A DNA stretch of 64,000 nt from Golubevia sp. BC0850 (taxonomy: Eukaryota > Basidiomycota > Exobasidiomycetes > Golubeviales > Golubeviaceae), in assembly GCA_012976225.1 (NCBI GenBank), contig JAAVVG010000004.1, positions 496,001 to 560,000 on the forward strand, read 5' to 3'. A program made the translations under genes and the position numbers. Shown here piece after piece: positions 34,617 to 64,000 of this stretch. The notes below the pieces were generated by a model, which was not told where the DNA came from, did not search any database, and saw only the letters and a program-made list of their open reading frames with translations. How positions within the stretch are numbered: the first letter of the stretch is position 1; each line of letters opens with the position of its first letter.

Positions 34617-34656
34617 CAAGTCTTCGCATCAGTCGATCGCGTCTGGAGCCACTCCA

Positions 34657-37600
34657 TCGCCAGGAGCTTTTCTTCAAACACTTCAAGAATACCACAAGAG
34701 TCCTGGACAGGGGTAGCACAGCTTCGAGAGAAGCGAAGTCCAGCAAGAGAGCCCAGACCCAGCAGGCGGGTCCGCGAGGTGTAGCTCCTTTCTTCAGACA
34801 CTCAGTAGCAAGCGGCGTGCAGCTGACGAGAGCTTGAAAGATTTTGAATCTCGAATTAATCTTTCCTGTTTCCATTCCACTTCGTGTCTCAGATCCTCTT
34901 CAACTTCAACTTCAAGATGAGTTACGAACTTGTTCCGCATGGGAACAGCAGAGAAGAAGGAGACGTCGCTGGCCACATCCCAACTTTCCCTCAACCTGCT
35001 ATTCCAGGCCTGCATCGTCACTCTTCCTCTCAAGACCCTTTCAGCTCTCCCTCTTCCACTGCCCTCTCTCCAAATCTCGCATCTGGTCCAACTTCACCCC
35101 TTCAAGGACCTCCTGCCAACCAAAACTCCAACCCCCTTAAACAACCCCTGGAACTATCAGATCCTCCCATACGCACAGCCTCGCGAAGAAGAAGAGGGAG
35201 ATAAAACTTTCCACGATGAGCAAGACGACGAGAAGATGGGTCTACACAAGTACTCTCAATCCTACGATGTGGAAGAACAAGACCGAGCCTCGATTCAATT
35301 CGCAACTCGTCCCCTCCAAGATTCGCGCAGAGACTCAAGGCAAAGCTTTACCGGCTTCGGATCTGGTCAGAACTCGAGTCCCAGTCTCAGATCCTTCGAT
35401 ACCAAGAGATCTTCGAAGTTGTTGAACACAGGTAAAGACTTGGTCAAACCTGTCAACCGAGCTTACGTGGTGAGTTGAACTCATTTTATCTCGATCTCAA
35501 GAGCTGCGATTGCGGACTGACTGACCTCTCTCATCTCGCCTTTCAGGGAGCCATTGGAGTTCACATCTTCATTATCATTTTCTGCTGTCTTTGCTTGGGT
35601 CTAAGAGGAGATGGAAGCGGGTGAGTCAGGGACCATTTAGAATCTCAATCTATCGAGCTTGTCTGAAAATCGCCTTTCTCCCCAAACCCTGTGTACAGGT
35701 TCAAGACAAGTATCGGCACCAAGAACTTGGATCTTTACCAATCTGGACTGAATGGTGTGATCGGTTTCGTCGGAACCTGTATCACTGCTGGGCTTGCAGC
35801 AATGGCTGAAAGAGCTGCCACTCATCGGATCTTCGAACGCAGACACCAGGACTTGACTTACATGTCGGACGTCCTCTCTTGTGAGTGATCAGATCATGCT
35901 GAGAGTTTGATCTGTCTCAGTTCTCATTTCCTCCTTTCCTTTCTCAACTTCCTCAGCTTGGGCCGGTCCCTTCGCCTCCATGGGGGTTCTCTGGGATCAC
36001 TGCAAAGAGAAGTTCAAGCAGAGAAGGATGACGACGGAACTGGCGCTCGTCGTTCTTTACCTCATTCTGAACGCTTTACTGTCTACCATGTTTGGAGCCG
36101 TTTTCACTCGTGAGCATCGATTCGTACTATAAAGTGAAGAGGCTGTTGTCAGGGGCCAAGCGCCGATCCACTCGTTCTCTGACCGGCTTGATCTTCCTTC
36201 CCTTTTCTGTTCTCCCAATAAGTCGGTGTGGTAAGTAAGAGGTTAGCTAGAAGCAAAGGAGAGGAAGAGATGATAGACATCGGCTTTCTTTGTTCTAACG
36301 TTCCTGCTTATCTTGCAAACTCAATTTGTCAAGTTTGATGGAGTACAGTAAGTTATCGGCTCTTCCAAGACGATATGAAACGACTGCCTGGAAACTAAGC
36401 TGCTGTATTGCTTTCTTTTCGAATGCACTTTTGCTCAAGGACGGTGCTCCTCTTTCTTTGCGGAGCATATCCTTAGTCCCTTTCATAAACCTTGACGACT
36501 CCTTCCAGATCCCTTTCAACGTCTGGCAAATGTATAGGTGCGTTCAGATTTCCTCTAGGGTGAACACTTGTCTCAGACTAATAGAGCAATGTTGTTTGCA
36601 TCCTTTCGCTCTATAGCTCCACTACCTATTCCAACTTATATAGCCAGAACAGAACAATCCCTGGACAGTTCCGACGTCGCTTGTTTGACTATTCCAGTCC
36701 AGCCAATACTTCGTGAGTTCACTGTGAACCAGAAGACTTCCATCGAAGCTGACACACTTGATGTTTGGAACCCTCTTAGATCTGGATCTGTAATGGCTGG
36801 TGCCACTGATATTCAGGTTGAAGTAAGTGATGAGATAGAGCATTCTTTTTGTCTTCCATACCCAGACGCTCTCTGATCTCTCCGCCTCTTTCGATGCATC
36901 TCTTCACAAGTGTGGAGAAGTCGAGTTTGATTTCACAGCTTCCATGGATGTCACCGTTTACAATGACCGGAGGAGTGAGTAATAGTGTTTAAGAGACAGA
37001 GCCAACGAGAAAGAAGGCAAAAATGAAGTCTGAATCCGGTCAATGGATTTGTTTCCGTTTTCACTTCCTTCCTCGGTGTCTTTGTCTGCCACCTAGCACC
37101 TCAATCCTTCCCAAGCTATGTCAGGATCATCCCCTCTCTGGAAAGCAGAAACAAGCTGTTCCCTGACCTTCAATTCATCGATTCATTCCCCTGGAATTAC
37201 TGTAAGTTCTCTCTCCTTTCCTTGTCTCAACTCAGCCTTGGACGAGTGGACTGACTGAATCTTCCATCCTGCTTCTGTGATCCCTTGAAGGTTCGACCTG
37301 GCCAAGCAATGGTACCAGTCTGTTCAGAACTCTACATCCTGATCTTGGTCTTCTTTTGGGACCTGATGGGTGAGTTAAGGTCAACCTATTGTTGATGGCT
37401 CATGCTCACTCAGCTTCTTTTCGTTCCTACCATTCTGTGTCCAGCTCCGCCTTCCCTTATCCCTACATGCCAATTGCCTATTTTGCCCATTATTCTTGCC
37501 CAAACGACCCAGAGCCGGATCTTTGTTCGATGGCTCATCCAGAATATAGTTTCCCTGGCAGATGTGAAGTGAGACACTCGTGACGAGACGAAGCCGTTGC

Positions 37601-39383
37601 TAGAGTCCAAGAGTTTGCTTTCTGACAATCTTTCCTGCCTCCTCCTTACCTTTTTCTTTTTCTTCTGATTCTATCTTCTTTCCTTGATCCCACGTTTCAA
37701 GGCTCTCAAAGATGCTAAAGGAAAGTCTGCGACGTCTAGACCCATCTATCCAGAATTTGGCACAGACATTCAGAATACGCTTTACGAGCAAGCTGATCAC
37801 TTCGACTACGTGGCAACAGATCAGTATGGAAGGCTCCAGGACATTGGAATCGAGCTGGTGAGTTCTTCGTAAGCAACTCCCTGTCTTGCTCATACCTGAC
37901 ATTGCTCTTTCTCATGTTTGACTCGCTCTGCAGTCGGTTTTTGCTTGCAGTGCCAAAGCAACAGAGGCTCCGAAGGTGAATGTTCTCCTGCCGAACAATA
38001 CCTTAAGTGAAAGTAAAGACTTTTACCCTGGAGCTGAAGACGAGATTATCAAGCAGACCCGAGAGTGGGGTCCCTTCTCTCCACCAGATCCTGCAGATCC
38101 TTCGTTTCAAAACGTTTTGTCTCAGTTTCCAGTGATGTTTGATCCACTGTAAGTTCGGGACCTGCCATTTGGTTCTTCTGCCTACTGAAGCTCGAACCAT
38201 CCACCATTTCCTTTGGTCCAAAGAGGAGCACCTCTGGTATCTGAGTAAGTTTCCGTTGGACCTTCAACTTCCCATTTTCGAGTTCTGACCCTCGTGGAAT
38301 CCTCAACCTCTCTTAGTGCGGGTGGTTCAGCGAGCAACTTCAACGTTGGTTGCCTATATTATCCGTGGCGTTGCCACGTCACCACCTCGCTCGAGTGGCT
38401 TGTGTCAACTTTCTTTGATGTAGAGCTGGACCCTGACGACAGCACCTCTGCAATCGGAAACTACACTGAAAGCGCCATCACCTACAATGACCTGGCTCTG
38501 TTGGAACTTAACTTGGCTACCATCACGGTGAGTCGCCCACAAACAAGCGTCGCCGACAACAACATCTAAGATTTTCTTTCACCTTCGCCAGGCAGTCGCC
38601 CTAGCAAATGCAGGTTCTAGTGTTTCCTCTTATGGGTCATTCTACCAGAAGTCTGTCCAGCTCATCAAGGTGTCCATCAACTTGTGTGAGTAGAACTGAT
38701 CGCACACCTCTTTAGCTCGATCCCCTTGATTCAAGTCTTTTGTTTACGCTAAAATCCTCGAACAGGGCCCGCCATCTTCGGAGTTGCTGGATCTATTATC
38801 TCTCTTTTGATCGCTTTCTTGTTGTTGAGACCTCGTGAGTGTAGTCCAAACAAGTCTTTCCTAAACTTCGTCCGTTCACCTCGTTTCCTCGAACTCTCAC
38901 TTCCAGTCCCACACGGCTCGCCTCACATTCGTAAGTGGCGACTTTTTGACGATGCTCTCGAAACTTTTACTCGTTCCTACTATTGACTTTCTCACTGTTG
39001 TTCTATCACCAGGTGGTACCTCTCTGATCCACATCACGAGACTTCTGGCCGTTTCAGACATCCCAGAGAAGATGCGATCCTCGCCATGGGAGGACAAGAA
39101 GCTCAGAGCTTTCGGAAGGTTCGATGCGAGTTTCGGGAGATCCAAAGGATTGATCAAGAAAAAGTTGAGAAGGATAGGCAAATCTGATAAAATCTTCCCA
39201 CCTCTTCCTTTCACTTTCCATTTCCCTTTCCAGGTGGCTGTCGATCGAGGTGGATCGACTCTCATGTCGGAAACTGTCTTGACAGCTTCCGGTTCGAGTG
39301 CTCTCCCCATCATTACTCCGTCCTCCTCTACAAACGATGGATTGGTCTACCGTGAGAAGACTTTCTTGACTTCTCCCTATTAG
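34657..39383 (+). repeat. Inverted duplication, left arm (4.73 kb)
   Basis: This segment is repeated in reverse orientation at 58261-62987. Mirrored positions add up to 97644 along the whole length, so there is no insertion or deletion between the arms. Every stretch I compared base by base, including introns, was identical. Identity stops at 34656 on the left and at the stop codon on the right. Beyond both ends the flanks are still similar but have many differences. Confidence 0.95.
34917..39383 (+). CDS. Large multi-exon membrane protein, copy 1
   Basis: Some fifteen exons with GTGAGT-type donors are seen. The N-terminal tail ends KDLVKPVNRAYV. Membrane segments follow: GAIGVHIFIIIFCCLCLGL, GVIGFVGTCITAGLAAMAE, then ELALVVLYLILNALLSTMFGA. 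A long Cys-containing ectodomain then carries N-glycosylation sites (NGTS, NNT, NYTES) and includes PYPYMPIAYFAHYSCPNDPE, NVGCLYYPWRCHVTTSLEWL and NLATIT. A last membrane segment, WPAIFGVAGSIISLLIAFLL, is followed by a cytoplasmic tail ending TFLTSPY. Two overlapping frames compete at the N-terminus: ATG 34917 (MSYELVPHGNSREE, Ser/Pro-rich) and ATG 34939, the latter open through exon 1. I know no named family. The gene is identical to the copy at 58261-62727. Confidence 0.65.
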
Positions 39384-39955
39384 CTATCAGTCGACGGTGA
39401 AACCACCGCGCTTTTTTCCTTTCCTTTCCAAGTCATCTTCCTCAGTGCTCAGCACTTTCGGCTCCAAATGAACTTCAACCTTGCTTATTCGACCATCTTT
39501 TAAACAAATCCTGTTCTTTTTGCCTTTCCCTCATTTTGCTTCATAAGTTCAAAGGCCCCGCCCGTCCTTCTCGTTCTCTTCCGTTCCGTTTTCTTCCATC
39601 TTCACCCCTCTCAAACATTAGCTTATTTTTTGTTACGATCTTTCAGGTGATTCGGTTTATAATCAAAATATCCATTCGAAAGGAGCTCAAGGTTGGTCTG
39701 AGAAGACGCAAATGACCGTAGCGTCACGCGTCACGCATTCAGAGTCAAGAGAGGAGAGAGATTGAGCATTGGATGGATTGTATTTGATCTGAATAGGAGA
39801 TGGATTGATAGACTAGATGTAGAGATCGAAAAGAAGGGTAAATAGAAATGGTTGAAGGAGAAGAGAGAAGTCGAAAGAGGTATAGAGAGGAGATAGAATC
39901 GAGAAAATTGTTGAGAGGAGGGTAGTGGGTTTCACAGCCGATGTTCATTTGAACA
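39384..39955. other. Convergent spacer, copy 1 and the FYVE-RING gene
   Basis: The first 25 bp resemble the flank of copy 2 with differences; after that the similarity is lost. An ACGCGT lies at 39726-39731 in a GCGTCACGCGTCACGC context. No gene is supported. Confidence 0.5.
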
Positions 39956-42900
39956 TTAGACCAAAACGTCTCTAGCATGTACAGGACAGAATCGACCTCT
40001 GCGCAACCAAGAATCGATACAAGCTCGATCAAAGTAGCAGAGGCAGGGAAGTCGGGCTATCAAACTGCCTGGAACGAACTCTTCCATACAGATGGAGCAC
40101 TCCTTTCCGACGATTGGAGAGGTCTCTGGAAGTTTATAGACTAAAGGAAGAAGCAAGGGAAAGAAAGAAAGAGGGCGTGAGGGATTTGATCGGGTCGTCT
40201 CTGCCCTTTCCCAACTTTCGACTCACCCAAGTAGCGTCCACCTTGAACACTTCCACCGCCACCATTCTCAAGACAGTTCTGGGCGAAGGAGAAAAAAGAA
40301 TTGATCAAGGGTCAGAGTCAATCCAGCCATGCATAGCTTTCTCTCTCTGAAGATCGACCAACTCACTCTGACATGTTCTTCTTGTTGGACCGATCCTCCA
40401 AGTTCAACCAAAGTCTTACTGCAGACCGGGCATTCAGCAAGTTCTGAAGCTCTAGAGCTAACATCACTGGGAGCTTGTGGATGAGAAGCATCTTCTGAGT
40501 GAATACCATTCACATTAGCATGAGTAAGAAGAGCATCAGCTCCTCTTGGAACTCTTAGATTAGGAGGTAAATTTCTCTCCGCATCACAAGAGTTACAGAT
40601 TCTTGAAGCTCCTCCTGATTCAGAAAGTAACATTTCCGGTAGAGCTGGATCGATGACTAGTTCGGAAGAAGAAAGTTTGGCCCTACGAGAAGAGCAGGGG
40701 TCGCAGAAGATTCGACCGCATCGTCGACAGTGATGCTGAGGAGCAAAAGAAGTGAAGAGATTATGAGTCGATTATAGAGGCTGATAGGTAGAGACTCACT
40801 CTTATGCTTACCTTTCTCAAGAAGAAAGTGAATTTTCTGCTGCAACCTCTACATTCACCGACAGATTCATCTCTCTCCCATTGAGCTTGAAGATTATGTT
40901 CTCTCAACAAAGGCCTACTACTTTGACCTTGACTTAAACCTCCGACTCCAACTCCAGTTCCAAAGGCATTTGAAGTAGAAGCGTCTGCGCTAGAATAGAC
41001 ATTGGAACCAGTTCTAGTATTGGCACTTCCTAAGAAAGTAGAATTAGGAACGTCATTCGTCGGAACTCTAAACTCTCTTGAACTAGCTAAATCAGCAGAT
41101 CTCATAGCACCAGCGGTTGTTCCAGCTTCTGAAGGAGCCACACCTCCAAAGACGGAAGAGGCAGAAGGGACTCTGTTTCCTAGAGATGGTCTTAAAGATG
41201 AAGGTAAAAGAGAAGAACCGCCTCCTGAAGGTCCAAGTCTTGTAATGACAGAAATTCCATCGTCTTTGAAAGAATTTGGGTAGATGAACTCTTCGTCGTC
41301 ATCATCGTCTGATTCCTCTTCGTCACTCGCTTCTTCTAGACCAGCAGCTTGCTTCAATTGTCCGAGCTGAAGAGTGTATTCTTTCAACAAATCTTCAGCT
41401 TTGCTACGTCTATCAGCGTCGGTATCGTCTAGTCGAAAGGTAAAGAAGAGGCAGGCAAAATGATGAGGTTAGACGTCGATCAGCTCAAGACCTCTTCATC
41501 TCCCTTGGACTCACCAAAAGCGTTTCCTCTGAGTTCTTGAACCGCCAAATCCAATCTAGCCATTTTCTTAGCAACTTCAATTCCACCCCCTTTCCCGCCA
41601 TCTTCACTATTGCTAGTTAAAACGTCAGCAGGGGTTGAACCCATTTCCGAACCTTTTCCAGCAAGAGTAACCGCCCTCTCAATGTAATCAGATTCCGATC
41701 CTAAATTTCTAACTTGATTCCTAGCTTGATTCCTAGCTTCATTCACAGCTCTATTTGTAGAACTACTACCATTTACAGATTTTTTAGAAGCCAAAGAAAA
41801 CAAGCCTCCAGATTTGAAATCGTTTTCTTCTTCAGAATCTTCATCATCTGATCTACCTAAATGTTCGGCCCAACCGAATTCAGCAGCTTCTAAATCATCG
41901 CCGAATTCGATATCTAATCTACGTCTCATGACTCTGATCCATCTTCTTCTTCTAACCCAACCTGTTTTTTCGATTTCTGTTTCTTTTGAATTGGAGTTTG
42001 AAGCACCGGAAGCTAATTCTAGTAGTGATTGACCTGTTGAGGCTCCTGGACCTGGAAGAACTCCTCCCGTAATAGCTCTACCTAGAGAAGCTCCTAATCC
42101 TTTACCTTCTAACAATCTGTTGAGAGGAGGTGGAATTGATCCTACCCATTTCTCATCCGGAGCATTGAAGGTTTGAGCGTATTGCCAACCTGAAGATGGA
42201 TCCACTAAAGGATGAGTTAAATCGATTCTCCAATCGGATAACCAAAAGTGAGATCTCTCTCCATTAGAATGAAAAGCCGACCCTGAATTTTCAGCATCAG
42301 AGTTTCCACGAGATTTAAGAACTGATTCTAGCGTGGGGGTTGAACCCAATTCGTCCTCTACATCTTCGGCATCTGCACTTCCATCTTGATTCCTTGATTT
42401 CCCATTGATCCTTAAATTTCCACCTTCTCTTTTCCTCCTAGCATCTAACTTGGCTTGTCTAACCTTACTCCCTCTTTTTGGTAAGTCCAATTTATAAGGT
42501 TCCTCCCTCTTTGGTAAACCAACATCGTTTCTATCGATATGAGTATTGAGAGTTCTAGATTGAGCCAAAGGACCTGGAGGCATAGTACTTGGTGCTCTCC
42601 TATCAATCTTATTCCTTCTAGCAGAACTTGTTCCAGACCATCTAGGTTTCGCACCATGAGAAGCCAAAGTTCCCAATCTAGTATCCAACCTTTGATTTTC
42701 ATAAAGTAAAATTGGAATAGTAGTATGTAAAGCCAGAGGATTATAAGGACCTTGACCAGGAAGAATCTTTCCATCTCTTGTTGCATTCCCATTCTGATTA
42801 GCTTGAATTTCATTCTCATCCCCTTGATTTCCCAAGGAGAATTTCAATGCATTCCACCTTTCACTTTCGTACTTCAACAAAACTTGACAAACGAAGATTT

Positions 42901-44460
42901 CAAAAGTACTTACTGCCACATCGAAGGCAGTTTCTCCAGCTTGATTTCTAGCGAAAGGATCCACTTGACATTTTGAAGTTAAATACCTTACTAGAGTTAA
43001 ATGTCCATTTGAAGCTGCGTTCATTAAAGGTGTCCAACCTCCTCTACCTCCTCTGGCTGAAACATCTGCATCAAATCTTTCGATTAAAACTTTGGCTATG
43101 TCTAGATAACCTCTTGAACATGCGTTGTGAAGTGGAGTCCAGGCATCTGAATCTTTACAAGTAGCAGAAGCTCCGGAAGAGAGTAAGAAGGTTAATGCTG
43201 GAAGTTTACCTGCTAGAGCTGCTTTGTGAAGAGCGGTCTTGGGGAGAAGAAAGAGTGGAGATGGTTGGTTAGAAGACAGGGACGACTTTGCAGAGACTTT
43301 AGCCTGTTCATCGTTCCATCTCAAGTTATCCGATCTTTCCTACAGTCCCCAAAAATTGCTTCCAACCCCCCCCCCCCTTAACCCCTGTTCAACTCATAAG
43401 ACTCACCTCTCCCTCTCCATCCTCCAACCCAACCATGGCACCCTTCCCAACCAACCATTTACAAATGTCCACCTTCCCACACTTAGCAGCATAATGTAAC
43501 GGAGTCAATCCCAGCCCACTATGAGGATTAGGTTCATTGGCTAAAGCGAAATTTGAAATGGGAGTCCAAACCTCACTTGGAGAGGTAAGATTGGAGAAGA
43601 ATTCTTCTAGAGAGGATAATGGACCTTGAGAAGATAGGGTTGAGAGTAGAGAATGATCGATTGGGATTGAGGGTAGAGATGGAGGAGGAGAAGGGGTAGG
43701 AAGAGTTTCTGGATTTGAGGGAGTGAGATTAGGTTGAGGTTGAGAGGAAGAATAGATGAATGGTTCGTCGTCGTCATCGTCTGATTCCTCCTCTTCTGCT
43801 TTTGCTGAAGAAGAAGCAATGATGGCTTGATCTTGATTCTCTTGAGAAATTAGATTTTGTGAAGTCATTTCTTGAAGGGGAGAAGAGGCTTCCATCTGGT
43901 GACTTTCATCAGCTACTACCTCTTGAGACTCAGCTCCTAGTTCTCGTTCAACTTCAGCTGAAGAAGGTGTTTCTAGTTGAGAATCTCGAGAGATTGGTTG
44001 AGTCCAAGCTTGGATTTCTGTGGGATGAATTGAAGCTGAAGGTTCAGCTTGAGGCTCAGGCTCAGGGTCAGGCTGAGGAGAAGCAGCTGATGTTGAAGAA
44101 GTTGAAGCAATTGAATCTTGAAGCGTATCTGCTTGTACTGGATCCGGATCTGGTTGATTCCAGGGATCGTCACTGGATTAGAGGAGGAAGTGAGGGGTAA
44201 GAGAGGGTCAGATAAGGATTGGAAAGGGAAGGGCTCAGTCTTCTCTCCGCTGAATCGATTCGGCTTGGTTCTGGATTAGAATTTCGTTTTCTTTTCTACT
44301 CTTTCCCTGTAGAGTTTGAATGAATCGATTGTCGTCTGACAGCTTCGCTTCCTCTCTATTTTAACTCTACTTGCTTCCCCCTCCCATCCCCCTCTTATTA
44401 TCCTTCTTGTGCTTCCTCTGAACCTGTACTGATATTTACTCACTCTACTCTTCCACTCAT
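39956..44460 (-). CDS. Ankyrin - dysferlin-domain - FYVE - RING protein
   Basis: Minus strand, roughly 1300 residues. A 17-nt first exon at 44460-44444 (MSGRV) is likely; the reading resumes at 44172 with [12 protein letters not shown]. Order of parts: an acidic disordered N-terminus; ankyrin repeats ([80 protein letters not shown]); a dysferlin-type domain ([20 protein letters not shown] ... [16 protein letters not shown]); an FYVE finger ([17 protein letters not shown] ... [14 protein letters not shown] ... CNSCDAE); and a C-terminal RING ([12 protein letters not shown] ... CPVHARD). The FYVE finger should bind PI3P on endosomes and the RING should give ubiquitin-ligase activity, as in yeast Pib1, which lacks the ankyrin and dysferlin parts. 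Divergent from BUD31. Confidence 0.75.
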
Positions 44461-44589
44461 AATTCTGACTTTATCTCTCTCTTTCTTATTTGTGACTTTC
44501 CAACTGAATTTCAGCCTCAAAAGCTGCGATGGGATGGGTCGTACAAGAACACCGTAACCACCTTCTTCTCCCATCCCCACCCACCCACC
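44461..44589. promoter_or_regulatory. Divergent promoter FYVE-RING gene/BUD31
   Basis: About 129 bp separate the proposed first ATG of the FYVE-RING gene from the BUD31 ATG. An upstream ATG at 44529 precedes BUD31 in another frame. Confidence 0.45.
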
Positions 44590-45849
44590 ATGCCAAAAGT
44601 GCGAACTTCTCGAACCAAAGCCCCTCCCGAGGGATTTGAAGATATAGAATCGATTTTAGAGGATTATTCTAGAGCCATGAGAGATGCAGAAAATGAAGAC
44701 AATGAAGGTAAAAGGAAAGTGGAAAGTTTATGGCCAATCATGAGAATCAGTCATACAAGGAGTAGATATATCTATGATCTCTATTATAAGAGAGAAGCTA
44801 TCAGCAAAGAACTTTATGATTGGTTGTTGAAGGAAGGTTATGCTGATGCTAAGTGAGTATCTGATGATCTGACGAGAGAGAGAGAGGGAGTACTTGGGGA
44901 GGGAGAGGGAGAGGGGAGAGATGATGGCAGGCAGAGGAGGGTGGGTTCAAAGCTGATTCAAGATGGATTGAATGAGGAATGGGAAAATATGATTGACTTT
45001 TCAGATAGAGGTCAGTTTCAAGAGAGGGAGAAATTCATGGATTGCAATCAGAGATAGAGACAGCCAACAATATCTTGAAGACACTCTTTGCCATATGCTT
45101 TTCGCTCAAGTAAAGGACATGGATCCAAGCCAAACTTGGCCTTCTCAAATCTGAAGCTCCTTCAATGCTTCACAGCATCTTTCAACTTCTCCTGCGTCTT
45201 GCTTCTCTATCCTTTACAAGCTCAACACAGAACACAACTCACCTTTCCTCCCTCCTTGCTCTACCTTTCACCTCCAGTCTAATTGCAAAATGGAAAAGAT
45301 CAGGTTATGAGAAATTATGCTGCGTGAGGTGTATTCAATCTAGGGTGAGTTCTTCGAAGCTTTCGAGGTGCCTTTCTTAGCAACTTCGTTTACTTTTTCT
45401 CGTCGATCTATAGTAGAATCTCCATTTTTTGCATTAATTGAGGCAAAACTGCTCTGTTCTCATCCTTCTAGAGATTCAAAGATCCTTCGAAACGCTTCAA
45501 AGTTACTGACAAAGCATTAAGAAGAATTCCTTGAGGCTGACCTCCCCTCTGCCTCCTTCCCTCTCTACCCAACTTTCCTCAGGACATGAACTATCAAGGA
45601 TCAACCTGTGTCTGTAGGATCCCTAAGAGTCAGGTTAGGGAAGGAACGGTAGTGGAATGCGTGCATTGTGGTGAGCTTTTGGGGAAAATTACTGAAAGAG
45701 TCCTGGGTTTTTGTATCTTCAAAACGCTCTGGACTTTGCTGATCAATTTGCTTTCTTCCCTCTCCTCTCTCTTCTCTTGGATTAAATGGAATCTCGTTGG
45801 CTCTTTTTTGTTTCTCGTAGGTTGTCGAGGTTGCGCTTCTGCTGATTAG
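44590..45849 (+). CDS. BUD31: BUD31/G10 pre-mRNA splicing factor
   Basis: Four exons (44590-44852, 45278-45344, 45583-45670, 45821-45849) join in phase to give 148 residues, matching the family length of about 144-157. The start [20 protein letters not shown] and the blocks [40 protein letters not shown] and [16 protein letters not shown] are nearly invariant in Bud31. The zinc-binding cysteines (CC, C, CVC, CVHCGCRGC) are all present. Bud31 is a core component of the activated spliceosome (NTC-related group). The last exon is only 29 nt and supplies the CRGC end. Confidence 0.95.
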
Positions 45850-46328
45850 ACTGCCGTTTCCACCCCTTTCGAGCTCTCTCCTACCACTTCTCGTTCTGCT
45901 CCTTGTTTTATTTCCCTCCTTTTCAGCAAAATGTAACAATATTTCTTATCTGTCCATTCATTTGCAAATGGCATAGAGCTGTTTCCTTCGCGATGGATGA
46001 AAGCCAAAGCTGGAGGGAGGAGATGAGTCTGCGAGGCTGAAGACTTCCCTCCCCCCTTTCCACAGGAGAACTGTAGAAGACTGCATTTTCTCTCTAACTG
46101 GAAAGCGTTGAAAGAAGAGAGTTTCATCTCGAACGAGGTGAGAGCGGGTAGTGCTTGCCCTGCTGAAACTGCAACTGCTACAGCCAGAGAAAAGTTTCTT
46201 CTTCTTGCTGTCTATTCTCTCGCTCTATCCCCCCCCCCTTTCTCTTCTCTTTTACGCGAAAGGATTCATTAAGTGAATCTGGAAATCTAACCTTCAAGAA
46301 AACTTCAACGTTCAAGTCTCATAGCACG
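45850..46328. other. Intergenic spacer BUD31 to NOP58
   Basis: Contains two C-rich runs (near 46048-46056 and 46230-46239) and CT-rich leader sequence. No gene is supported. Confidence 0.6.
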
Positions 46329-51245: not shown

Positions 51246-51452
51246 AAGGAACAATGATGATTCCCTCTTCAGTACTTTTGAATCAATGAATAAGTGAAGT
51301 TGTTGGTGAAATAAGCTGAAACATGTTGTTTTGGATTCTGGAGTTTTTCTAAAGTACAAAGGAGAGAGAGTAGTCTTGCACCTTAAAATTGACCTTGACG
51401 GAAGGACGATTCTTCGAGAGGTCAACTAGAAAGAAGACCAGAAGTTTTGAGG

Positions 51453-52311
51453 CTAGTCTTTCTTCCGAAACAGTGCTTCCAAACCTTCCATGGATGTGAC
51501 ACTATTCCCTCGAACAACCTGAGAAAGGAGAGGAAAGAGCGATCGATGATTTCGAGAGGAGGGAGAATAGAAGTCAGCATGAGCTCTGAATACCCAGCCA
51601 ACGAAGTATAGCCAATTGATAAAGCATGGTACTCCCAGAGCATAAGTTTCGAGACACCAAGTCTTTTTTTGCTAGAGTGATGAGAAGGTTGAGCAGCTCA
51701 TCTTCGGAGAGAGGAAGGATCCAAGCTGCTCTCCATAATTCCACTCTCACGCCGGCCCTTTCTCGGGTCCTTTGATTCTGATTTACAGAGATATCAGTCC
51801 AGCACTCATTCTGTGGATTCAATTGAGCGTCGAAAACGATCAAAGCCCGATGGCAGCGAGCCCATTCCATTCTCAAACCCTGTTCCAAAGTGCTCCAGAC
51901 CTCCTTCCTCTTCAAACGAGCAAGCTATGAAAGTCAGTCCATCTAATCCCCTCAGCTGAATGACTGTCCTGCTGTTCTCAGGCAAATATACTCAGTTTGC
52001 CCCCGCCTTCTCTGTTTACTTGCTTCTCATCCTTCCTCCTTGCATCCAATCCTGCACCTTTCAAAGCTCAGAGCTTTCGGGGATATGAATCAATGATCTC
52101 AACTCACCACAGTGCCACATTTTTCACCCTCTACCCAGGTCAAAGTGTTTCCCTCTGTTGGATGAACTTGTTCTACAGCATCATCCACCACCAAGTTCAA
52201 GAAAATGTCGAATCCTCTCAAGACTCCTTGAATCTTTCTTCCTCCTTGAATATTGACTGAAACTCTCTTGTCTAGATATCTTTTCAGTTCTGGTTGAGAA
52301 ACTTTGGCCAT
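51453..52311 (-). CDS. SMX2: Small nuclear ribonucleoprotein SmG
   Basis: Two exons encode 89 residues. Exon 1 (52311-52108) reads MAKVSQPELKRYLDKRVSVN, then IQGGRKIQGVLRGFDIFLNL and VVDDAVEQVHPTEGN, the Sm1 motif. A GTGAGT donor opens an intron of 589 nt. Exon 2 (51518-51453) reads VVRGNSVTSMEGLEALFRKKD, the Sm2 motif (RGNSV). SmG is one of seven Sm proteins in the U1, U2, U4 and U5 snRNP core. The intron is one of the longest in the window and contains an unbroken 113-codon frame on the same strand (51915-51574) of unknown meaning. LSM12 lies just upstream in the same orientation. Confidence 0.9.
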
Positions 52312-52630
52312 CTTGAGGATATCTTGTGAGTGGAAGGTTGATCACTGAAGATGGTGCAGTGAGCGGGAAGGAAGTCTATCTCTCACTCCCCCCCCCTCAC
52401 TCCTATCCTCTCTTCTCTGGCTCGAAAACGATCACACATTCAGCTTGTTCGCAACAGACATCTCTACAAGCTAAGCATTGATCTCATTGCAATTCTTCCC
52501 TCAACCCCTCCCCTCGTCTTCTCGAAATACACTCGCTTCTCTCCCTGCTCCCTGAGCCTGATTTCCAACTTCTGAAGACCCGAACACCTCAACGAAAATA
52601 CAGCAGCTTCATTGATCCCCCTGAGATCCC
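52312..52630. other. Spacer LSM12 to SmG
   Basis: C-rich run near 52388 and CT-rich sequence. It should hold the LSM12 3' UTR and the SmG promoter. Confidence 0.6.
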
Positions 52631-54183
52631 TTAAACAGCAACAGCAGTAGCAGACTTGGGAGCAGGCGAGCTCTGGGCGGGCGAAGAGGTGTTGCCCGCT
52701 TGCCTCGCGAGAATTCTCTTCCGTTCTCCTTCAAGCTAGAGAATCAGGCAGACATCAAGCGAGATGGCAGGTATCACGAGGAAGAAAGAAAGAAGAAGAG
52801 AAGTGAAGGCAATGGAGTCAGACACGAGAACAGGTCAAAGCTAACACCGAGAGAAGCTCTTGCAGTCGCTGGAACCAGGCGGTTCAAAACCAAAAAGGTC
52901 ACCCATTAAGAGGGATTGAATGCTACTCACGACTTTGATCACTCTGGTCCAACTATTTGCTTTCGCTTTCCCTTCCGCGTTACCAGGGCTCTCGGCTAGA
53001 CTTCGAAGTTGTTCGTGAGTGAACTTTGGAACATGTGTCGAGTTCGTGTCATAGTCAGGACCGTGCTATGGAGAGATGGATTAAAGAGGAGAAGTAAGGT
53101 GAGCAAAAGGGAAAATGGAACGTCGAGGCGTTCGTTGAGGTTGCTGTGCTTTGCGTGCCGGCCTAGCGTTGGGAGCGAGCAGCTCTGAGATACTCACTAC
53201 GATAACTTCGTCTAGGACGATTATATGCTTGTCATGCCAGCGACAAGGAAGACTGGAGGAGAGCGGAGAGCAGGAGGAAGAGGAGAAGTGGGTGGTGAGA
53301 TTGGGACATTCGTCTTGGGTCGAGCGGAGAATCAACCGCTCGTCTAGTCTAGCTCAAAGCAGTCCACAGTCAAATGGATCAGCGCATCGAGAGAGCTTCA
53401 CTTCGGGGCTTGAGGCATGTCAAAGAGATAGGTAGAGAACTCGCCTATAGCTCTCCTCTCCAGCTACGCTACGCTCCATCCTATCGTTACGCCTCTCCTT
53501 GAAAGTTCAAAAGATTCCAGATCTGTTCCTGAAGCACAGTTGAACCAAGGAGAGGCTGAGAGTAGCCACATCCTCTCAAGTTGTTCCCTTCCTCGCCATT
53601 CCACCTTCTTAGCTACTCACGTCTTACTGAGACCATCGAAAACTTCCTGAGCCAATTGACTAACGTCCTTTCCCTTCCTAGCAGCTCTAGCATGGCCTTC
53701 CTTGATAGCAGCCTCCTCTCTCCTCTTAGCAGCCTCGACATGAACAGGATGAATTGAAGTCAATTCCTTAACAAACTGTAAATCCTTTGAAGGTTCCTGA
53801 TCTTTGGACAATTGAGTGACTTGAATGTTTGAAATTTCTCTTGTTTTGATGATCAGAAAACCAGAAGACTTAGTGTTGGAGGAAGGATGAGATTGAAGCA
53901 GGGCTGGAGAAGGAGAAGCTGCAGCATGAGTTGGGATTGGAATCGAAGGAGGTTGAACACCGGTCTCTAAAACTACAGTTGCTAAGGCGGAATCATAAGC
54001 CCATAGAGAACCTGTAACTATTGAGTTATTAGATAAGGTTAAACGCAAAGCAGAACCTAAGAGGGAAGTTAGATCTTGAGGAGATGCTGCTGATGCTACT
54101 GCCTGACCAGCTGCTCCTCCAGCTCCCCTTCCAGCTCCTCCTTGCCTCTGATTTGGATTCTGATTTTGTTGAGGTTGAGACAT
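52631..54183 (-). CDS. LSM12 family RNA-binding protein
   Basis: Four exons (54183-53621, 53252-53198, 53065-52931, 52735-52631) join in phase and encode 285 residues. The start is Gln/Gly-rich (MSQPQQNQNPNQRQGGAGRG). An Sm-like fold follows (SLLGSALRLTLSNNSIVTGS, LWAYDSALATVVLETG). The anticodon-binding (AD) domain is split over three introns: FVKELTSIHPVHVEAAKRRE, LAQEVFDGLSKT, then LPCRWHDKHIIVLDEVIV, then the variable middle and TRVIKVLEGERKRILARQ. These match the Lsm12 AD consensus. The yeast orthologue associates with ribosomes and Pbp1. Divergent from THI6. Confidence 0.8.
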
Positions 54184-54466
54184 TGAGCTTGAGTGTCTTT
54201 GGGGAATGAGCTCTTCGGTAGAGGATTGCTTCTATCTTCTGGGCTATCCTGTCGCTCTGGCTGATTGGCCTCTCCAAGTCTATACAATAGGTTGCTCCTT
54301 TCTTGACAGAATTCAGCTCGAAGACTGAACTTGAACTTGAATCTTGAGCCTCTCCTTTGAAATTGATTAGAACCTCAAAAGATAAGAATCTCTTCTGATT
54401 GTCGGTTGGAGGAGAAGAGAAGCTGAGAAGCTTGCATTCTTCTCTCCGAAACATACAGCTATCAGC
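54184..54466. promoter_or_regulatory. Divergent promoter LSM12/THI6
   Basis: A 283-bp spacer lies between start codons. I looked for a thiamine pyrophosphate riboswitch upstream of THI6 and did not see one. Confidence 0.5.
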
Positions 54467-56728
54467 ATGTCATCAACTTCTTCAGATGCTTTCTCTCCTT
54501 CTTCAGGTAAAGCTCTGGACAAATCAAAGGTGGACTACTCTGTCTATCTGGTTACCGGAAGGGAGCTTTTGCCAGAGGGATTTGACTTCTTCCAAAGTTT
54601 GGAGAGCTCTCTCAAAGGTGGTGTCACTGTAGTTCAGCTCAGAGAGAAGAGTATCGACAATGGAGAATTCAGGAAGATTGCTGTCAAATGTTTGGAGATC
54701 TGTGACAAGGTGAGTGGTCGCTGAGAATTGGACGTAATGAATTGGGAGGGAAGTGTCAGTTGGATGGAGGGCATAGCAGTGACTCAGCTTGCCTCTGGAG
54801 AGCATCTTCTTCTTCTTGCTTTAGATGAGTGTTCTTTCAGTCTAGTATAAATCTTCGTCGAAAGTCTCAGAAGGAGGACGGCTTGCTACTGTGAAGGTCA
54901 CGGCTTATTCCTTCCCGCCGGTTCTCACCTTCCTTCTCCCTCCCTCGCCTCCGCAGTACAACGTCCCTCTATTGATCAACGACAACCTGTCTCTTTGCCT
55001 ATCTCTTCCCCTGAGGGTCGGTCTTCACATCGGTCAAACTGACATTGCTCTACCGCTAGCCCGTTCTCTCCTAGGTCCTTCTCGTCTTTTGGGAATCTCT
55101 TGCAACACTGCATCAGATACCCAAGTTGCAAGAGAAGGTGGAGCCGACTATGCAGGCGTGGGACCAGTCTACGGAACTTTATCCAAGAAAGGGATCACGG
55201 AGGACAAGATTTTGGGACCAAGAGGAGTAGGAAGCATCGTCTCAGCTCTGGTTCACCAAGGAAGTAGAATCCCTTGCGTCTTAATCGGTGGAATCAATCA
55301 GAGAACTTGTTTAAGAAGTCTTTTCGCAAGTGTTTCCAACGTCAACTATGCAGATGGAGTAGCTGTGATTAGTGCGATTCAAGGAAGTCTAACTCCAGAA
55401 TCAGCTGCGAAGGAACTTTCAGATTTAGTAGCTTCTTACAAGAGAGGACTTTCTTCAATGCTCTCGAGTCAGACTTCTACTCAATTCGGAGTTGACTCGG
55501 CTTTCGGGTCCAACAAGAAGGGAAATGGAGCTGGAGACGTCAAAGAACTTCTGAAATTATCTTCTGAGATCCTGGCTTCTCATCGTCAAGGAGATTCTCC
55601 TCCTGTCATTCAGACTTTGACTTCTCACGTCTCTGCTAGCTTCTCTGCAAACATCTGTCTGGCTTTGAGCGGTAGTCCTATCATGAGTCAACAATTCGAA
55701 GAAGCTGAAGATTTGGGGCGGGTCACTGGAGCGGCCGTCCTCAATATTGGAACGATCGGTCCTGAAGCAAGAAAAGGCATGAAAGCGGTCGGTATGGAAT
55801 CTAACAGAGGTCGAAAGGTGAGCAGAGACATTCGGTCTGACTTGCTCTGCTTTGCAGTGACTAATCCCTTTCTTTCTTCCTGCTTTATTTTGGGACTTTG
55901 CGCTCGCTACTCTCTCCATTGACTTTCTCAGCCTGTCGTTCTTGATCCAGTTGGAGTCGGGGCTTCTGCTTTCCGAAAGGGAGCTGTCGAAGGTGACTGA
56001 GATGTTTGATAATGTTGAACTTCGACCAGCCACAATCTTACCCCCATTTTTTGTTCTTCGATTTTTCCAATCTTTTTCAGAAATCCTCAATCATACTCAA
56101 GTCACTCTCATCAAGGGTAACGCTGCCGAACTTTCAGCCATCTATGGAGGAGATGCTCAAGTTGCCTCTCGAGGTGTCGACTCTGGTTCTGGAACTTTGA
56201 AAGACGCTCCAGGCCTAGTCAAAGCTTTGGCTCAACGTGAAAGATGTCTAGTTCTACTTTCTGGAAAAGTAGATCTTCTATCGGATGGAACTAGAACCGT
56301 CTCGTGTGAGAATGGAGTTGAAATGCTTGGGAGAGTTACCAGTACAGGTTGTGCTCTAGGTGTGATTCTCGCCGTCGGGATGGCTGCTGCCAGGAATGAA
56401 TGGGTCGCAAAGAGCAGAAATGGAGAGAATCAAAAACTCAGCAGCCTGGGGATGGTCATGGTAGATGCCGAACCTCAAGAACTCTTTGCTGGAGCATTGA
56501 TGGGGTGAGTGTTTTGCTTCAAAAGTCTATGTTCCGGCTGGAAACTTACCCCGTTTCTATCTCTGTTCTTTCTTCTTCAGCCTTCTGTCTTTCACCATTG
56601 CCTCTGAGCTTGCAATGGCTCGCCCTGAAGTCAAAGGTCCAGGGACCTTTTCTCCAGCTCTGCTCGACGAGCTTGCTTCGATCTCTCCGGAGATTTTACT
56701 CGAGAAAGCCAAGATCGCTTTCGTTTGA
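54467..56728 (+). CDS. THI6: THI6, bifunctional thiamine-phosphate synthase / hydroxyethylthiazole kinase
   Basis: Five exons (54467-54709, 54957-55817, 55932-55992, 56081-56504, 56581-56728) join in phase to 578 residues. The N-terminal half is the TIM-barrel thiamine-phosphate synthase: YSVYLVTGRELLP, GGVTVVQLREKSIDNGEF, VPLLINDNLSLC, GLHIGQTDIALPLAR, DYAGVGPVYGTLSKKG and PCVLIGGINQ. The C-terminal half is the thiazole kinase: QTLTSHVSASFSANICLALS, GSPIMSQQFEEAEDL, PVVLDPVGVGASAFRKGAVE, TLIKGNAAELSAIYGG and GRVTSTGCALGVILAV with the catalytic Cys. The fused enzyme phosphorylates the thiazole and couples it to the pyrimidine to make thiamine phosphate. Both halves look complete. Confidence 0.95.
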
Positions 56729-57059
56729 TGTTGCTCTGTTTTTTTGTCCATCTGCTTTCTACTCATATCTTCCCAATGATGTCCTCGTCAACAACCCCAA
56801 GATGTACGCAATCCTGCCTACACCCTCAATCAAGCTCTTTTAAGATATTGCTCTACCGATAAGAAACGCGAGACGTGATGTGAATTTAAGCGATACCTTC
56901 GCGTCAGAAACCCGCTTCTCTAACGGCGCTGCGCAGTTCATTCCTGTTCTTCTGTCGTCTCTCGTACGGCATGACAAAACCTAGGCATTCGTTTATAACC
57001 TTCCTCTTCCTTCCTAACCTTCTCCATCTCAAAGTCTTCTCTGATTTCTGAGACTCAAA
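56729..57059. other. Spacer THI6 to the short-chain dehydrogenase
   Basis: 3' flank of THI6 and promoter of the dehydrogenase. No gene is supported. Confidence 0.6.
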
Positions 57060-57946
57060 ATGAAGTTCTTAATCACTGGTGCAAATCAAGGACTCGGTTA
57101 CTACACTGCTGAGATCTTATGTGTGGCTCCAGGTAATCAAGTCTTCATCACAAGTAGAGACAGTTCTAAAGGGGAAGCAGCTGCTGCCGAGTTGAAGAAA
57201 ACCACACATTCAACTTCAACTGTGGGTCTGGTCCACCTGGATATCACCGACGATGAGTCAATCAGCAAGGCGGCCTTGCTACCTGATCTCCAAGAGCTGG
57301 ATTGTCTAATAAATAACGGAGGAGTTGCGTTCCTCAAAGAGACCTCTACCAGAAAGATGATGATGGAAGTCTACAACGTCAACGTCTTTGGAACAGCTGT
57401 TGTTACCGAAAAGTTCCTTCCAGCTTTGAGGTAAGTCTGATATTTCTGCGATCCTCGTTCCTACATCCTCCATCAAAAAGCTACTTTGCTTCTCTCTATC
57501 TTCCTTCTTCTTCTTTTCAGCAAGTCCAAGCATCGCCCAGCCATCATTAACGTCTCAAGTGGACTCGGTTCGATTGATAGGAGAATGAAAAACTTTACTC
57601 CAAACTCGGACTCGAAGGGCCCTACCAACCTCATAGCCTACAACACTTCGAAGACTGCTCTTAATGGACTCTCGGCTTTCTTTGCTAACGAGAATCCCAA
57701 GATGAGAGTAGTATGCGTAGCTCCAGGTAAGGTGTCATTTGTCTCCAATCGTTCTCTTTCAGAAGTTCTGTTCTCACTTTCTTCTTCTACCGTGCTTCTG
57801 TCTCAGGTCACTGCGCTACCAATCTGAACAATCACGCCGCTCCTAATCCACCTCAATCAGGAGCCAGAATCATCGCCAATGCTGCAATGGACGAAGAAGG
57901 AGAGACTGGAATCTTTGTTGGTGTTGACGGAAAGATTCCTTGGTAA
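57060..57946 (+). CDS. Short-chain dehydrogenase/reductase
   Basis: Three exons: 57060 to about 57431, about 57522-57727 and about 57807-57946. Together they encode roughly 240 residues, typical of classical SDRs. The Rossmann motif is MKFLITGANQGLGYYTAEIL, with the cofactor-discriminating segment FITSRDSSKGEAAAAELK, suggesting NADP(H). HLDITDDESISKA supplies the conserved Asp, CLINNGG the NNAG-type motif, INVSSGLGSID the catalytic Ser and AYNTSKTALNGLSAFFA the Tyr-x-x-x-Lys pair. The end (GIFVGVDGKIPW) resembles carbonyl reductase-like SDRs. The substrate is unknown. Convergent with membrane-protein copy 2. Confidence 0.85.
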
Positions 57947-58260
57947 CTCAAGCGCATGATGTCGATCTGAGTATTGACTGCACTGCAATGATCTTTTCTA
58001 ATTCAATTCTTGATGCAAAGGAAAAAATTATGTGAACGGAAAAGAAAGCTTGACCTGAGATCTGGAGCAGAAATGGCTGAATTCCATGTGATTCGAGAAC
58101 AACGGTCGTGACATCTGGGACTAGGGAGAGAAAGGACCACGTCAAAAAAGTGGAATTTATTTGAAGGAACTCAAACAAATAGATGAGAAAATCGCGGAAA
58201 GTGAATGGAGATCAAAGCATTTGGAAACAGAAGGTTACCTAAAATTGGTTTCGTCGTCGA
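57947..58260. other. Convergent spacer, dehydrogenase and copy 2
   Basis: The last 20 bp before the duplicated segment (TCGACGACGAAACC when read from copy 2) match the copy 1 flank with differences. No gene is seen. Confidence 0.55.
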
Positions 58261-61200
58261 CTAATAGGGAGAAGTCAAGAAAGTCTTCTCACGGTAGACC
58301 AATCCATCGTTTGTAGAGGAGGACGGAGTAATGATGGGGAGAGCACTCGAACCGGAAGCTGTCAAGACAGTTTCCGACATGAGAGTCGATCCACCTCGAT
58401 CGACAGCCACCTGGAAAGGGAAATGGAAAGTGAAAGGAAGAGGTGGGAAGATTTTATCAGATTTGCCTATCCTTCTCAACTTTTTCTTGATCAATCCTTT
58501 GGATCTCCCGAAACTCGCATCGAACCTTCCGAAAGCTCTGAGCTTCTTGTCCTCCCATGGCGAGGATCGCATCTTCTCTGGGATGTCTGAAACGGCCAGA
58601 AGTCTCGTGATGTGGATCAGAGAGGTACCACCTGGTGATAGAACAACAGTGAGAAAGTCAATAGTAGGAACGAGTAAAAGTTTCGAGAGCATCGTCAAAA
58701 AGTCGCCACTTACGAATGTGAGGCGAGCCGTGTGGGACTGGAAGTGAGAGTTCGAGGAAACGAGGTGAACGGACGAAGTTTAGGAAAGACTTGTTTGGAC
58801 TACACTCACGAGGTCTCAACAACAAGAAAGCGATCAAAAGAGAGATAATAGATCCAGCAACTCCGAAGATGGCGGGCCCTGTTCGAGGATTTTAGCGTAA
58901 ACAAAAGACTTGAATCAAGGGGATCGAGCTAAAGAGGTGTGCGATCAGTTCTACTCACACAAGTTGATGGACACCTTGATGAGCTGGACAGACTTCTGGT
59001 AGAATGACCCATAAGAGGAAACACTAGAACCTGCATTTGCTAGGGCGACTGCCTGGCGAAGGTGAAAGAAAATCTTAGATGTTGTTGTCGGCGACGCTTG
59101 TTTGTGGGCGACTCACCGTGATGGTAGCCAAGTTAAGTTCCAACAGAGCCAGGTCATTGTAGGTGATGGCGCTTTCAGTGTAGTTTCCGATTGCAGAGGT
59201 GCTGTCGTCAGGGTCCAGCTCTACATCAAAGAAAGTTGACACAAGCCACTCGAGCGAGGTGGTGACGTGGCAACGCCACGGATAATATAGGCAACCAACG
59301 TTGAAGTTGCTCGCTGAACCACCCGCACTAAGAGAGGTTGAGGATTCCACGAGGGTCAGAACTCGAAAATGGGAAGTTGAAGGTCCAACGGAAACTTACT
59401 CAGATACCAGAGGTGCTCCTCTTTGGACCAAAGGAAATGGTGGATGGTTCGAGCTTCAGTAGGCAGAAGAACCAAATGGCAGGTCCCGAACTTACAGTGG
59501 ATCAAACATCACTGGAAACTGAGACAAAACGTTTTGAAACGAAGGATCTGCAGGATCTGGTGGAGAGAAGGGACCCCACTCTCGGGTCTGCTTGATAATC
59601 TCGTCTTCAGCTCCAGGGTAAAAGTCTTTACTTTCACTTAAGGTATTGTTCGGCAGGAGAACATTCACCTTCGGAGCCTCTGTTGCTTTGGCACTGCAAG
59701 CAAAAACCGACTGCAGAGCGAGTCAAACATGAGAAAGAGCAATGTCAGGTATGAGCAAGACAGGGAGTTGCTTACGAAGAACTCACCAGCTCGATTCCAA
59801 TGTCCTGGAGCCTTCCATACTGATCTGTTGCCACGTAGTCGAAGTGATCAGCTTGCTCGTAAAGCGTATTCTGAATGTCTGTGCCAAATTCTGGATAGAT
59901 GGGTCTAGACGTCGCAGACTTTCCTTTAGCATCTTTGAGAGCCTTGAAACGTGGGATCAAGGAAAGAAGATAGAATCAGAAGAAAAAGAAAAAGGTAAGG
60001 AGGAGGCAGGAAAGATTGTCAGAAAGCAAACTCTTGGACTCTAGCAACGGCTTCGTCTCGTCACGAGTGTCTCACTTCACATCTGCCAGGGAAACTATAT
60101 TCTGGATGAGCCATCGAACAAAGATCCGGCTCTGGGTCGTTTGGGCAAGAATAATGGGCAAAATAGGCAATTGGCATGTAGGGATAAGGGAAGGCGGAGC
60201 TGGACACAGAATGGTAGGAACGAAAAGAAGCTGAGTGAGCATGAGCCATCAACAATAGGTTGACCTTAACTCACCCATCAGGTCCCAAAAGAAGACCAAG
60301 ATCAGGATGTAGAGTTCTGAACAGACTGGTACCATTGCTTGGCCAGGTCGAACCTTCAAGGGATCACAGAAGCAGGATGGAAGATTCAGTCAGTCCACTC
60401 GTCCAAGGCTGAGTTGAGACAAGGAAAGGAGAGAGAACTTACAGTAATTCCAGGGGAATGAATCGATGAATTGAAGGTCAGGGAACAGCTTGTTTCTGCT
60501 TTCCAGAGAGGGGATGATCCTGACATAGCTTGGGAAGGATTGAGGTGCTAGGTGGCAGACAAAGACACCGAGGAAGGAAGTGAAAACGGAAACAAATCCA
60601 TTGACCGGATTCAGACTTCATTTTTGCCTTCTTTCTCGTTGGCTCTGTCTCTTAAACACTATTACTCACTCCTCCGGTCATTGTAAACGGTGACATCCAT
60701 GGAAGCTGTGAAATCAAACTCGACTTCTCCACACTTGTGAAGAGATGCATCGAAAGAGGCGGAGAGATCAGAGAGCGTCTGGGTATGGAAGACAAAAAGA
60801 ATGCTCTATCTCATCACTTACTTCAACCTGAATATCAGTGGCACCAGCCATTACAGATCCAGATCTAAGAGGGTTCCAAACATCAAGTGTGTCAGCTTCG
60901 ATGGAAGTCTTCTGGTTCACAGTGAACTCACGAAGTATTGGCTGGACTGGAATAGTCAAACAAGCGACGTCGGAACTGTCCAGGGATTGTTCTGTTCTGG
61001 CTATATAAGTTGGAATAGGTAGTGGAGCTATAGAGCGAAAGGATGCAAACAACATTGCTCTATTAGTCTGAGACAAGTGTTCACCCTAGAGGAAATCTGA
61101 ACGCACCTATACATTTGCCAGACGTTGAAAGGGATCTGGAAGGAGTCGTCAAGGTTTATGAAAGGGACTAAGGATATGCTCCGCAAAGAAAGAGGAGCAC

Positions 61201-62727
61201 CGTCCTTGAGCAAAAGTGCATTCGAAAAGAAAGCAATACAGCAGCTTAGTTTCCAGGCAGTCGTTTCATATCGTCTTGGAAGAGCCGATAACTTACTGTA
61301 CTCCATCAAACTTGACAAATTGAGTTTGCAAGATAAGCAGGAACGTTAGAACAAAGAAAGCCGATGTCTATCATCTCTTCCTCTCCTTTGCTTCTAGCTA
61401 ACCTCTTACTTACCACACCGACTTATTGGGAGAACAGAAAAGGGAAGGAAGATCAAGCCGGTCAGAGAACGAGTGGATCGGCGCTTGGCCCCTGACAACA
61501 GCCTCTTCACTTTATAGTACGAATCGATGCTCACGAGTGAAAACGGCTCCAAACATGGTAGACAGTAAAGCGTTCAGAATGAGGTAAAGAACGACGAGCG
61601 CCAGTTCCGTCGTCATCCTTCTCTGCTTGAACTTCTCTTTGCAGTGATCCCAGAGAACCCCCATGGAGGCGAAGGGACCGGCCCAAGCTGAGGAAGTTGA
61701 GAAAGGAAAGGAGGAAATGAGAACTGAGACAGATCAAACTCTCAGCATGATCTGATCACTCACAAGAGAGGACGTCCGACATGTAAGTCAAGTCCTGGTG
61801 TCTGCGTTCGAAGATCCGATGAGTGGCAGCTCTTTCAGCCATTGCTGCAAGCCCAGCAGTGATACAGGTTCCGACGAAACCGATCACACCATTCAGTCCA
61901 GATTGGTAAAGATCCAAGTTCTTGGTGCCGATACTTGTCTTGAACCTGTACACAGGGTTTGGGGAGAAAGGCGATTTTCAGACAAGCTCGATAGATTGAG
62001 ATTCTAAATGGTCCCTGACTCACCCGCTTCCATCTCCTCTTAGACCCAAGCAAAGACAGCAGAAAATGATAATGAAGATGTGAACTCCAATGGCTCCCTG
62101 AAAGGCGAGATGAGAGAGGTCAGTCAGTCCGCAATCGCAGCTCTTGAGATCGAGATAAAATGAGTTCAACTCACCACGTAAGCTCGGTTGACAGGTTTGA
62201 CCAAGTCTTTACCTGTGTTCAACAACTTCGAAGATCTCTTGGTATCGAAGGATCTGAGACTGGGACTCGAGTTCTGACCAGATCCGAAGCCGGTAAAGCT
62301 TTGCCTTGAGTCTCTGCGCGAATCTTGGAGGGGACGAGTTGCGAATTGAATCGAGGCTCGGTCTTGTTCTTCCACATCGTAGGATTGAGAGTACTTGTGT
62401 AGACCCATCTTCTCGTCGTCTTGCTCATCGTGGAAAGTTTTATCTCCCTCTTCTTCTTCGCGAGGCTGTGCGTATGGGAGGATCTGATAGTTCCAGGGGT
62501 TGTTTAAGGGGGTTGGAGTTTTGGTTGGCAGGAGGTCCTTGAAGGGGTGAAGTTGGACCAGATGCGAGATTTGGAGAGAGGGCAGTGGAAGAGGGAGAGC
62601 TGAAAGGGTCTTGAGAGGAAGAGTGACGATGCAGGCCTGGAATAGCAGGTTGAGGGAAAGTTGGGATGTGGCCAGCGACGTCTCCTTCTTCTCTGCTGTT
62701 CCCATGCGGAACAAGTTCGTAACTCAT
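58261..62727 (-). CDS. Large multi-exon membrane protein, copy 2
   Basis: This is the mirror image of the gene at 34917-39383. I found no difference in any exon or intron compared, so the same four membrane segments, glycosylated ectodomain, cytoplasmic tail and competing N-terminal frames apply. The run of five C on the coding strand at which the two N-terminal frames could be reconciled lies at 62508-62512. Promoter and 3' flank differ from those of copy 1, so the two genes make the same protein but may be expressed differently. An assembly duplication is unlikely, because the flanks are diverged homologues and not unique sequence. Confidence 0.65.
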
Positions 62728-62987
62728 CTTGAAGTTGAAGTTGAAGAGGATCTGAGACACGAAGTGGAATGGAAACAGGAAAGATTAATTCGAGATTCAA
62801 AATCTTTCAAGCTCTCGTCAGCTGCACGCCGCTTGCTACTGAGTGTCTGAAGAAAGGAGCTACACCTCGCGGACCCGCCTGCTGGGTCTGGGCTCTCTTG
62901 CTGGACTTCGCTTCTCTCGAAGCTGTGCTACCCCTGTCCAGGACTCTTGTGGTATTCTTGAAGTGTTTGAAGAAAAGCTCCTGGCGA
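58261..62987 (-). repeat. Inverted duplication, right arm (4.73 kb)
   Basis: Reverse-complement copy of 34657-39383. The arms are separated by 18.9 kb holding eight intact single-copy genes. The first clear mismatch on the outer side pairs 62988 with 34656. Confidence 0.95.
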
Positions 62988-63966: not shown

Positions 63967-64000
63967 GGCTAGGTTCTTGAAATTGGTTGCTTGAGATTTG

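Follow-up and report, generated by a model that had tools for sequence, protein, structure and literature searches.

An inverted gene pair with identical 4.7-kb arms in the basidiomycete Golubevia sp. BC0850: probable gene conversion over an older duplication

Introduction

Primate Y chromosomes carry palindromes whose large inverted arms are kept near-identical by gene conversion. In Caenorhabditis, inverted paralogue pairs are also near-identical, and PMC1803023 offers arm-to-arm conversion as the mechanism; a review of these cases cautions about recent duplication (PMC3966223). Inverted repeats mediate recurrent inversions in humans according to PMC3961182. The same source puts the mean conversion tract of flies at 518 bp and states that tracts longer than 1 kb are rare in mammals, although lengths of as much as 22 or 53 kb have been claimed. 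Here we describe a pair of inverted arms, each holding one copy of a gene that we call the twin gene, in a 64,000-nucleotide stretch of the Golubevia sp. BC0850 genome (assembly GCA_012976225.1, contig JAAVVG010000004.1, positions 496,001 to 560,000; hereafter the window). The two copies are identical over 4.7 kb, introns included, and adjoin diverged homologous sequence at their 5' border, a structure that probably reflects recent conversion between older paralogues.

Results

A repeat scan of the window (exact seed of 14, minimum length 60 bp, ungapped) returned a single inverted pair, reported as 34631-39383 and 58261-63013 after extension through mismatches; with the same settings the window contained no direct repeat family and no other inverted pair. 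Within these limits, the left arm and the reverse complement of the right arm (Table 1) did not differ at any of 4727 positions. The coordinate sum was 97644 throughout and no indel was present, as the first-pass annotation of this DNA had described, with identical exons and introns wherever it compared them. Two homologous genes lie in inverted orientation on one chromosome, and their identity runs through introns (1742 bp in the gene model) and other non-coding sequence. The absence of any difference places a 95% upper bound of 0.00063 on the divergence between the arms. A DNA search of the whole assembly (25.77 Mb in 64 contigs) recovered the two arm sites only and no third copy.

Outside the identical tract, homologous and diverged sequence adjoined the 5' border. 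The outer flanks (34580-34655 against 62989-63076) aligned over 89 columns, comprising 75 aligned base pairs with 10 substitutions (5 transitions and 5 transversions) and 5 gap events that together span 14 columns. This corresponds to an identity of 86.7% and a Kimura two-parameter distance (K80) of about 0.15 (0.147); base 34656, which adjoins the left arm, is one further mismatch. The local alignment scored 57, and the highest score among dinucleotide shuffles was 33, none of 300 shuffles at each of three lengths (600, 300 and 120 bp) reaching 57. Divergence steps from at most 0.06% in the arms to about 13% in the flank. Under the assumption of a single rate, all 10 differences would fall within the 75 flank sites with a probability of about 10^-18. 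Farther out, global alignment added doubtful matches, and 50-column blocks beyond the flank homology had identities of 0.32-0.49, save for one block in which just 10 columns were aligned; unrelated sequences reach such values when an alignment is forced. We also considered a promoter or mobile element as the origin of the 5' flank. This was unsupported: the genome search found the flank DNA at the two arms and at no third site, so that no dispersed element is evident.

The 3' border gave a less clear picture. Directly after the stop codon, the left copy contains 7 extra bases, after which 13 of 15 bases match the other copy; past this 15-bp stretch there was no further recognisable match. In free local alignment, the inner flanks scored 22 at 600 bp, a value reached by 157 of 300 shuffles and stemming from a pyrimidine run rather than from the border. 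Shorter flanks gave similar outcomes, with 143 of 300 shuffles reaching the observed score at 300 bp and 43 of 300 reaching a score of 20 at 120 bp. When the comparison was confined to 30 bp on each side, counted from the border and picked as anchor length after the match had been seen, a fraction of 0.00235 of 20,000 random window pairs scored as high. We regard homology of the 3' flanks as probable, not proven. The first-pass annotation had proposed diverged homology at both borders; the roughly 90 bp that it noted on the left agree with the 89 alignment columns. On these alignments, diverged homology at the borders is strong at the 5' end and only suggestive at the 3' end.

Each arm contains a single gene together with its leader. 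In both arms the 3' end of the gene faces the spacer and the 5' end faces away from it. A self-trained gene finder produced 24 models in the window and recovered the twin gene only as a 117-amino-acid fragment per arm; the gene was therefore modelled by hand. The left arm closes with the TAG stop codon of this gene (39381-39383), and the identity ends exactly there. One donor site in the model, GTACAG at 36343, is atypical. The last exon may contain one further intron, since four paralogous loci are without 36 residues at this place. In the 801-residue product, four hydrophobic segments, probably transmembrane, were found at about 72-104, 119-140, 187-221 and 643-672. This layout suggests a membrane protein in which a large loop or ectodomain separates the last two segments.

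The first exon of the model, and with it the start of the twin gene, is provisional. A reading frame beginning MSYELV starts at the first ATG of the arm and resembles, in composition, the N-terminal tails of three paralogues (L025, L026 and L027), all of which keep an open frame across the equivalent region. In both arms this frame differs from that of the rest of exon 1 (34917-35469 and its mirror), and we found no convincing candidate for an intron joining the two. Conversion would carry such a change into both copies. Alternatively, an intron of unusual type may join the frames, the gene may start elsewhere, or the two arms may share a sequencing error.

Table 1. Coordinates of the inverted arms, their genes, flanks and spacer in the window, with the paralogous loci elsewhere in the genome
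Feature	Position	Strand	Description
Left outer (5') flank	34580..34656	+	Diverged homologue of the right outer flank
Left arm	34657..39383	+	0 mismatches in 4727 bp; two copies in the genome
MSYELV reading frame	34917..35204	+	Begins at the first ATG of the arm; mirrored in the right arm
Left twin gene	35236..39383	+	Hand-made model of 21 exons with GT-AG introns, 801 amino acids, open throughout
Left inner (3') flank	39384..39405	+	7 bp present in this copy only, followed by 15 bp that are probably homologous
Spacer	39384..58260	.	18,877 bp; second copy not found (DNA search, two halves)
Right inner (3') flank	58246..58260	-	15 bp of probable homology
Right arm	58261..62987	-	Exact reverse complement of the left arm
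Right twin gene	58261..62408	-	Mirror image of the left model, from arm identity
Right outer (5') flank	62988..63076	-	Diverged homologue of the left outer flank
Paralogous loci L025, L026, L027, L028, L029, L032	contigs C44, C22 (two), C63, C62, C47		

The twin protein matched no Pfam family at expect values (E) up to 1. A protein database search scored 7995 candidates and returned none at E <= 0.001, and a query with the C-terminal region alone (residues 636-716) gave 41 candidates, none at E up to 10; the search needs shared exact words and distant relatives may escape it. The same database gave 857 matches for the fused thiamine enzyme encoded nearby. Within the genome, 13 of the 43 matched pieces lay outside the arms, at 35-57% identity, and defined at least six further loci (Table 1). 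These searches suggest that the twin protein belongs to what looks like a small, lineage-restricted family. DNA matches between the paralogous loci retrieved had identities of 68.6-80.1%, the exception being a 32-bp match of 94% between the arm and L032. The pair formed by L026 (C22) and L027 (C63) served as a control and showed ordinary decay: identity ranged from 0.51 to 0.84 per 200-column block and the longest exact run was 28 bp. Conversion across the whole family of dispersed paralogues, considered as a further candidate, was not seen in this pair, the only one profiled. Upstream of the C63 paralogue, a 162-bp direct repeat is present with 88% identity between its copies (L027:4343-4504 and 4838-4999).

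Base composition was compared between the twin gene and other genes. Its guanine-plus-cytosine (GC) content at third codon positions was 0.519, against 0.276-0.458 in all 11 other models with more than 900 coding bases. When codons were matched (69 to 553 per comparison), it also exceeded the value of every one of the six paralogous loci, although some aligned pieces run through introns. Higher third-position GC is the direction predicted by GC-biased conversion, and selection on codon use would act alike; we treat this result as neutral.

The spacer between the arms encodes predicted proteins with Pfam matches to ankyrin repeats, BUD31, a Nop domain, aldehyde dehydrogenase, a fused thiamine-phosphate synthase/hydroxyethylthiazole kinase and short-chain dehydrogenase. 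A further one is presumably LSM12-like, Pfam showing only its AD domain. A larger segmental duplication was unsupported, as the two halves of the spacer matched only themselves and one 111-bp stretch at 73% identity elsewhere in the genome (the search skips simple repeats). No tRNA and no Rfam family was found in the window. Nor was any mating-type domain among the Pfam matches of the 9 proteins tested from the set formed by the 24 models and the hand-made one.

Among the 120 best of the 857 matches to the thiamine enzyme (54467-56728), proteins of Parajaminaea, Exobasidium, Ceraceosorus, Violaceomyces and Meira were 53-55% identical, those of smuts and Tilletia 47-53%, and those of mushrooms and Tremella-type fungi about 38-41%. 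Parajaminaea, Ceraceosorus and Violaceomyces belong to Ustilaginomycotina, and this order of matches makes it probable that the genome does too. The top match was a 343-residue fragment (JGI), 100% identical and covering half of the query, so that this species or a very near one is represented in public data. Two short stretches close to the right end of the window, 63455-63507 and 63861-64000, showed 75-94% identity to C61 and to two places on C22, and may point to another small gene family. Just past that end (L031:14-115) lies an imperfect palindrome of about 100 bp, 80% self-complementary over 102 bp and 94% over a gapped 66-column core.

Discussion

The data presented make it likely that the arms are older inverted paralogues, recently overwritten by gene conversion or break-induced copying. 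The first-pass annotation had proposed a recent conversion tract across two older inverted paralogues, and the diverged, collinear 5' flank abutting a tract of 100% identity supports this proposal. The step in divergence between arm and flank, together with its very low probability under a single rate, favours conversion over an older duplicate. If both parts mutate alike, the duplication would be at least about 230 times as old as the last homogenisation (0.147/0.00063).

An inverted duplication that is simply fresh, with no conversion, would account for arms that are identical down to their introns, and the flank likeness would then be due to chance or to damage from error-prone copying at the edges. 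The weakness of the 3' flank homology is in its favour, and PMC3966223 points out that, if the flanks are without similarity, a duplication that is recent and confined to the gene may look like conversion. We nevertheless consider a fresh duplication improbable, because its flanks would be identical or unrelated, not homologous with 13% substitutions. The 5' flank is collinear and scores far above the shuffles, and 10 substitutions plus 5 gap events in 89 columns are far beyond what we would expect of errors at a junction. Selection alone could in principle have held old duplicates identical, in agreement with the same open 21-exon model in both copies. However, 1.7 kb of intron sequence is identical as well, whereas the paralogous loci that we compared diverge; the identity of the introns makes selection alone a barely credible explanation.

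An effect of the assembly concerns the identity itself. Near-identical copies may have been collapsed into one consensus placed twice, so that 100% identity is overstated, and 4.7 kb of perfect identity is what a shared consensus is expected to look like, in a genome that is in 64 contigs. We think this unlikely. The window is without N and its contig measures 1.28 Mb; the sequences on either side of each arm differ, and no copy of comparable length is found elsewhere, which argues against a simple mirrored misjoin. Collapsed copies would moreover have to be very similar already, and conversion would remain necessary to explain how abruptly identity falls at the 5' border.

Several points weigh against conversion between older paralogues as we propose it. 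Homology at the 3' border is weak. A single event of 4.7 kb would be long compared with the tract lengths given in PMC3961182. The GC bias is not consistent, arm introns having a GC content of 0.455, close to the 0.441 of other predicted introns. All comparisons were made within one assembly; the age of the events, the direction of copying, the number of events (a single long one or several that overlap) and the mitotic or meiotic setting are inferred.

We hypothesize the following course for conversion over an older duplication. A membrane-protein-like gene would have been duplicated in inverted orientation, giving the copies that are now separated by about 19 kb. This duplication would be old enough for the non-coding 5' edge to have accumulated indels and about 13% divergence. 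Later, one copy would have templated its partner, the inverted arms exchanging sequence through intrachromosomal gene conversion or through break-induced copying. With its limits at the stop codon and 260 bp ahead of the arm's first ATG, the copied tract would fill almost all of the recognisable duplicated segment. Crossovers between the same arms are predicted to invert the spacer.

The diverged edge of an old duplication beside a converted tract allows conversion to be separated from fresh duplication in a single genome. This answers in part the caution expressed for Caenorhabditis in PMC3966223, and it implies that zero divergence between paralogues need not date their duplication. It also predicts an inversion polymorphism of a block carrying the BUD31 and Nop-domain genes. 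More speculatively, the arms could form an active recombination switch, in which frequent conversion keeps the two copies of a lineage-restricted surface protein and their proximal leaders identical, crossovers repeatedly flip the 18.9-kb block and populations carry both orientations. We hold this extension to be unlikely.

Compared with the primate Y palindromes, which are far larger and lie on a sex chromosome, the locus described here has one gene per arm and is set among housekeeping-type genes. The Caenorhabditis F44E5.4/F44E5.5 pair and HSP16 locus are closer: PMC1803023 and PMC3966223 describe inverted pairs that are up to 100% identical, non-coding sequence included, and that stem from older duplications. 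For the HSP16 modules, conversion was argued from diverged flanks, as it is here (PMC1803023, PMC3966223). The spacers given in those texts measure 126 and 414 bp, whereas the Golubevia spacer spans 18.9 kb with several unrelated genes, in a fungal host. The Caenorhabditis structure was compared across sister species; here, a diverged and recognisably homologous flank survives in one genome. In the human cases treated in PMC3961182, highly similar inverted repeats flank unique sequence, an arrangement that allows recurrent inversion of the spacer and that is shared by the Golubevia arms. Those human inversions are recurrent, whereas inversion of this spacer is predicted only, from one assembly. 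Cryptococcus also has gene copies in divergent orientation; unlike the twin gene, they are pheromone genes of the mating type, according to PMC12510652. A literature search limited to openly licensed papers found no report of this arm pair. Concerted evolution of inverted paralogues is a well-known process, of which this pair is probably a new example.

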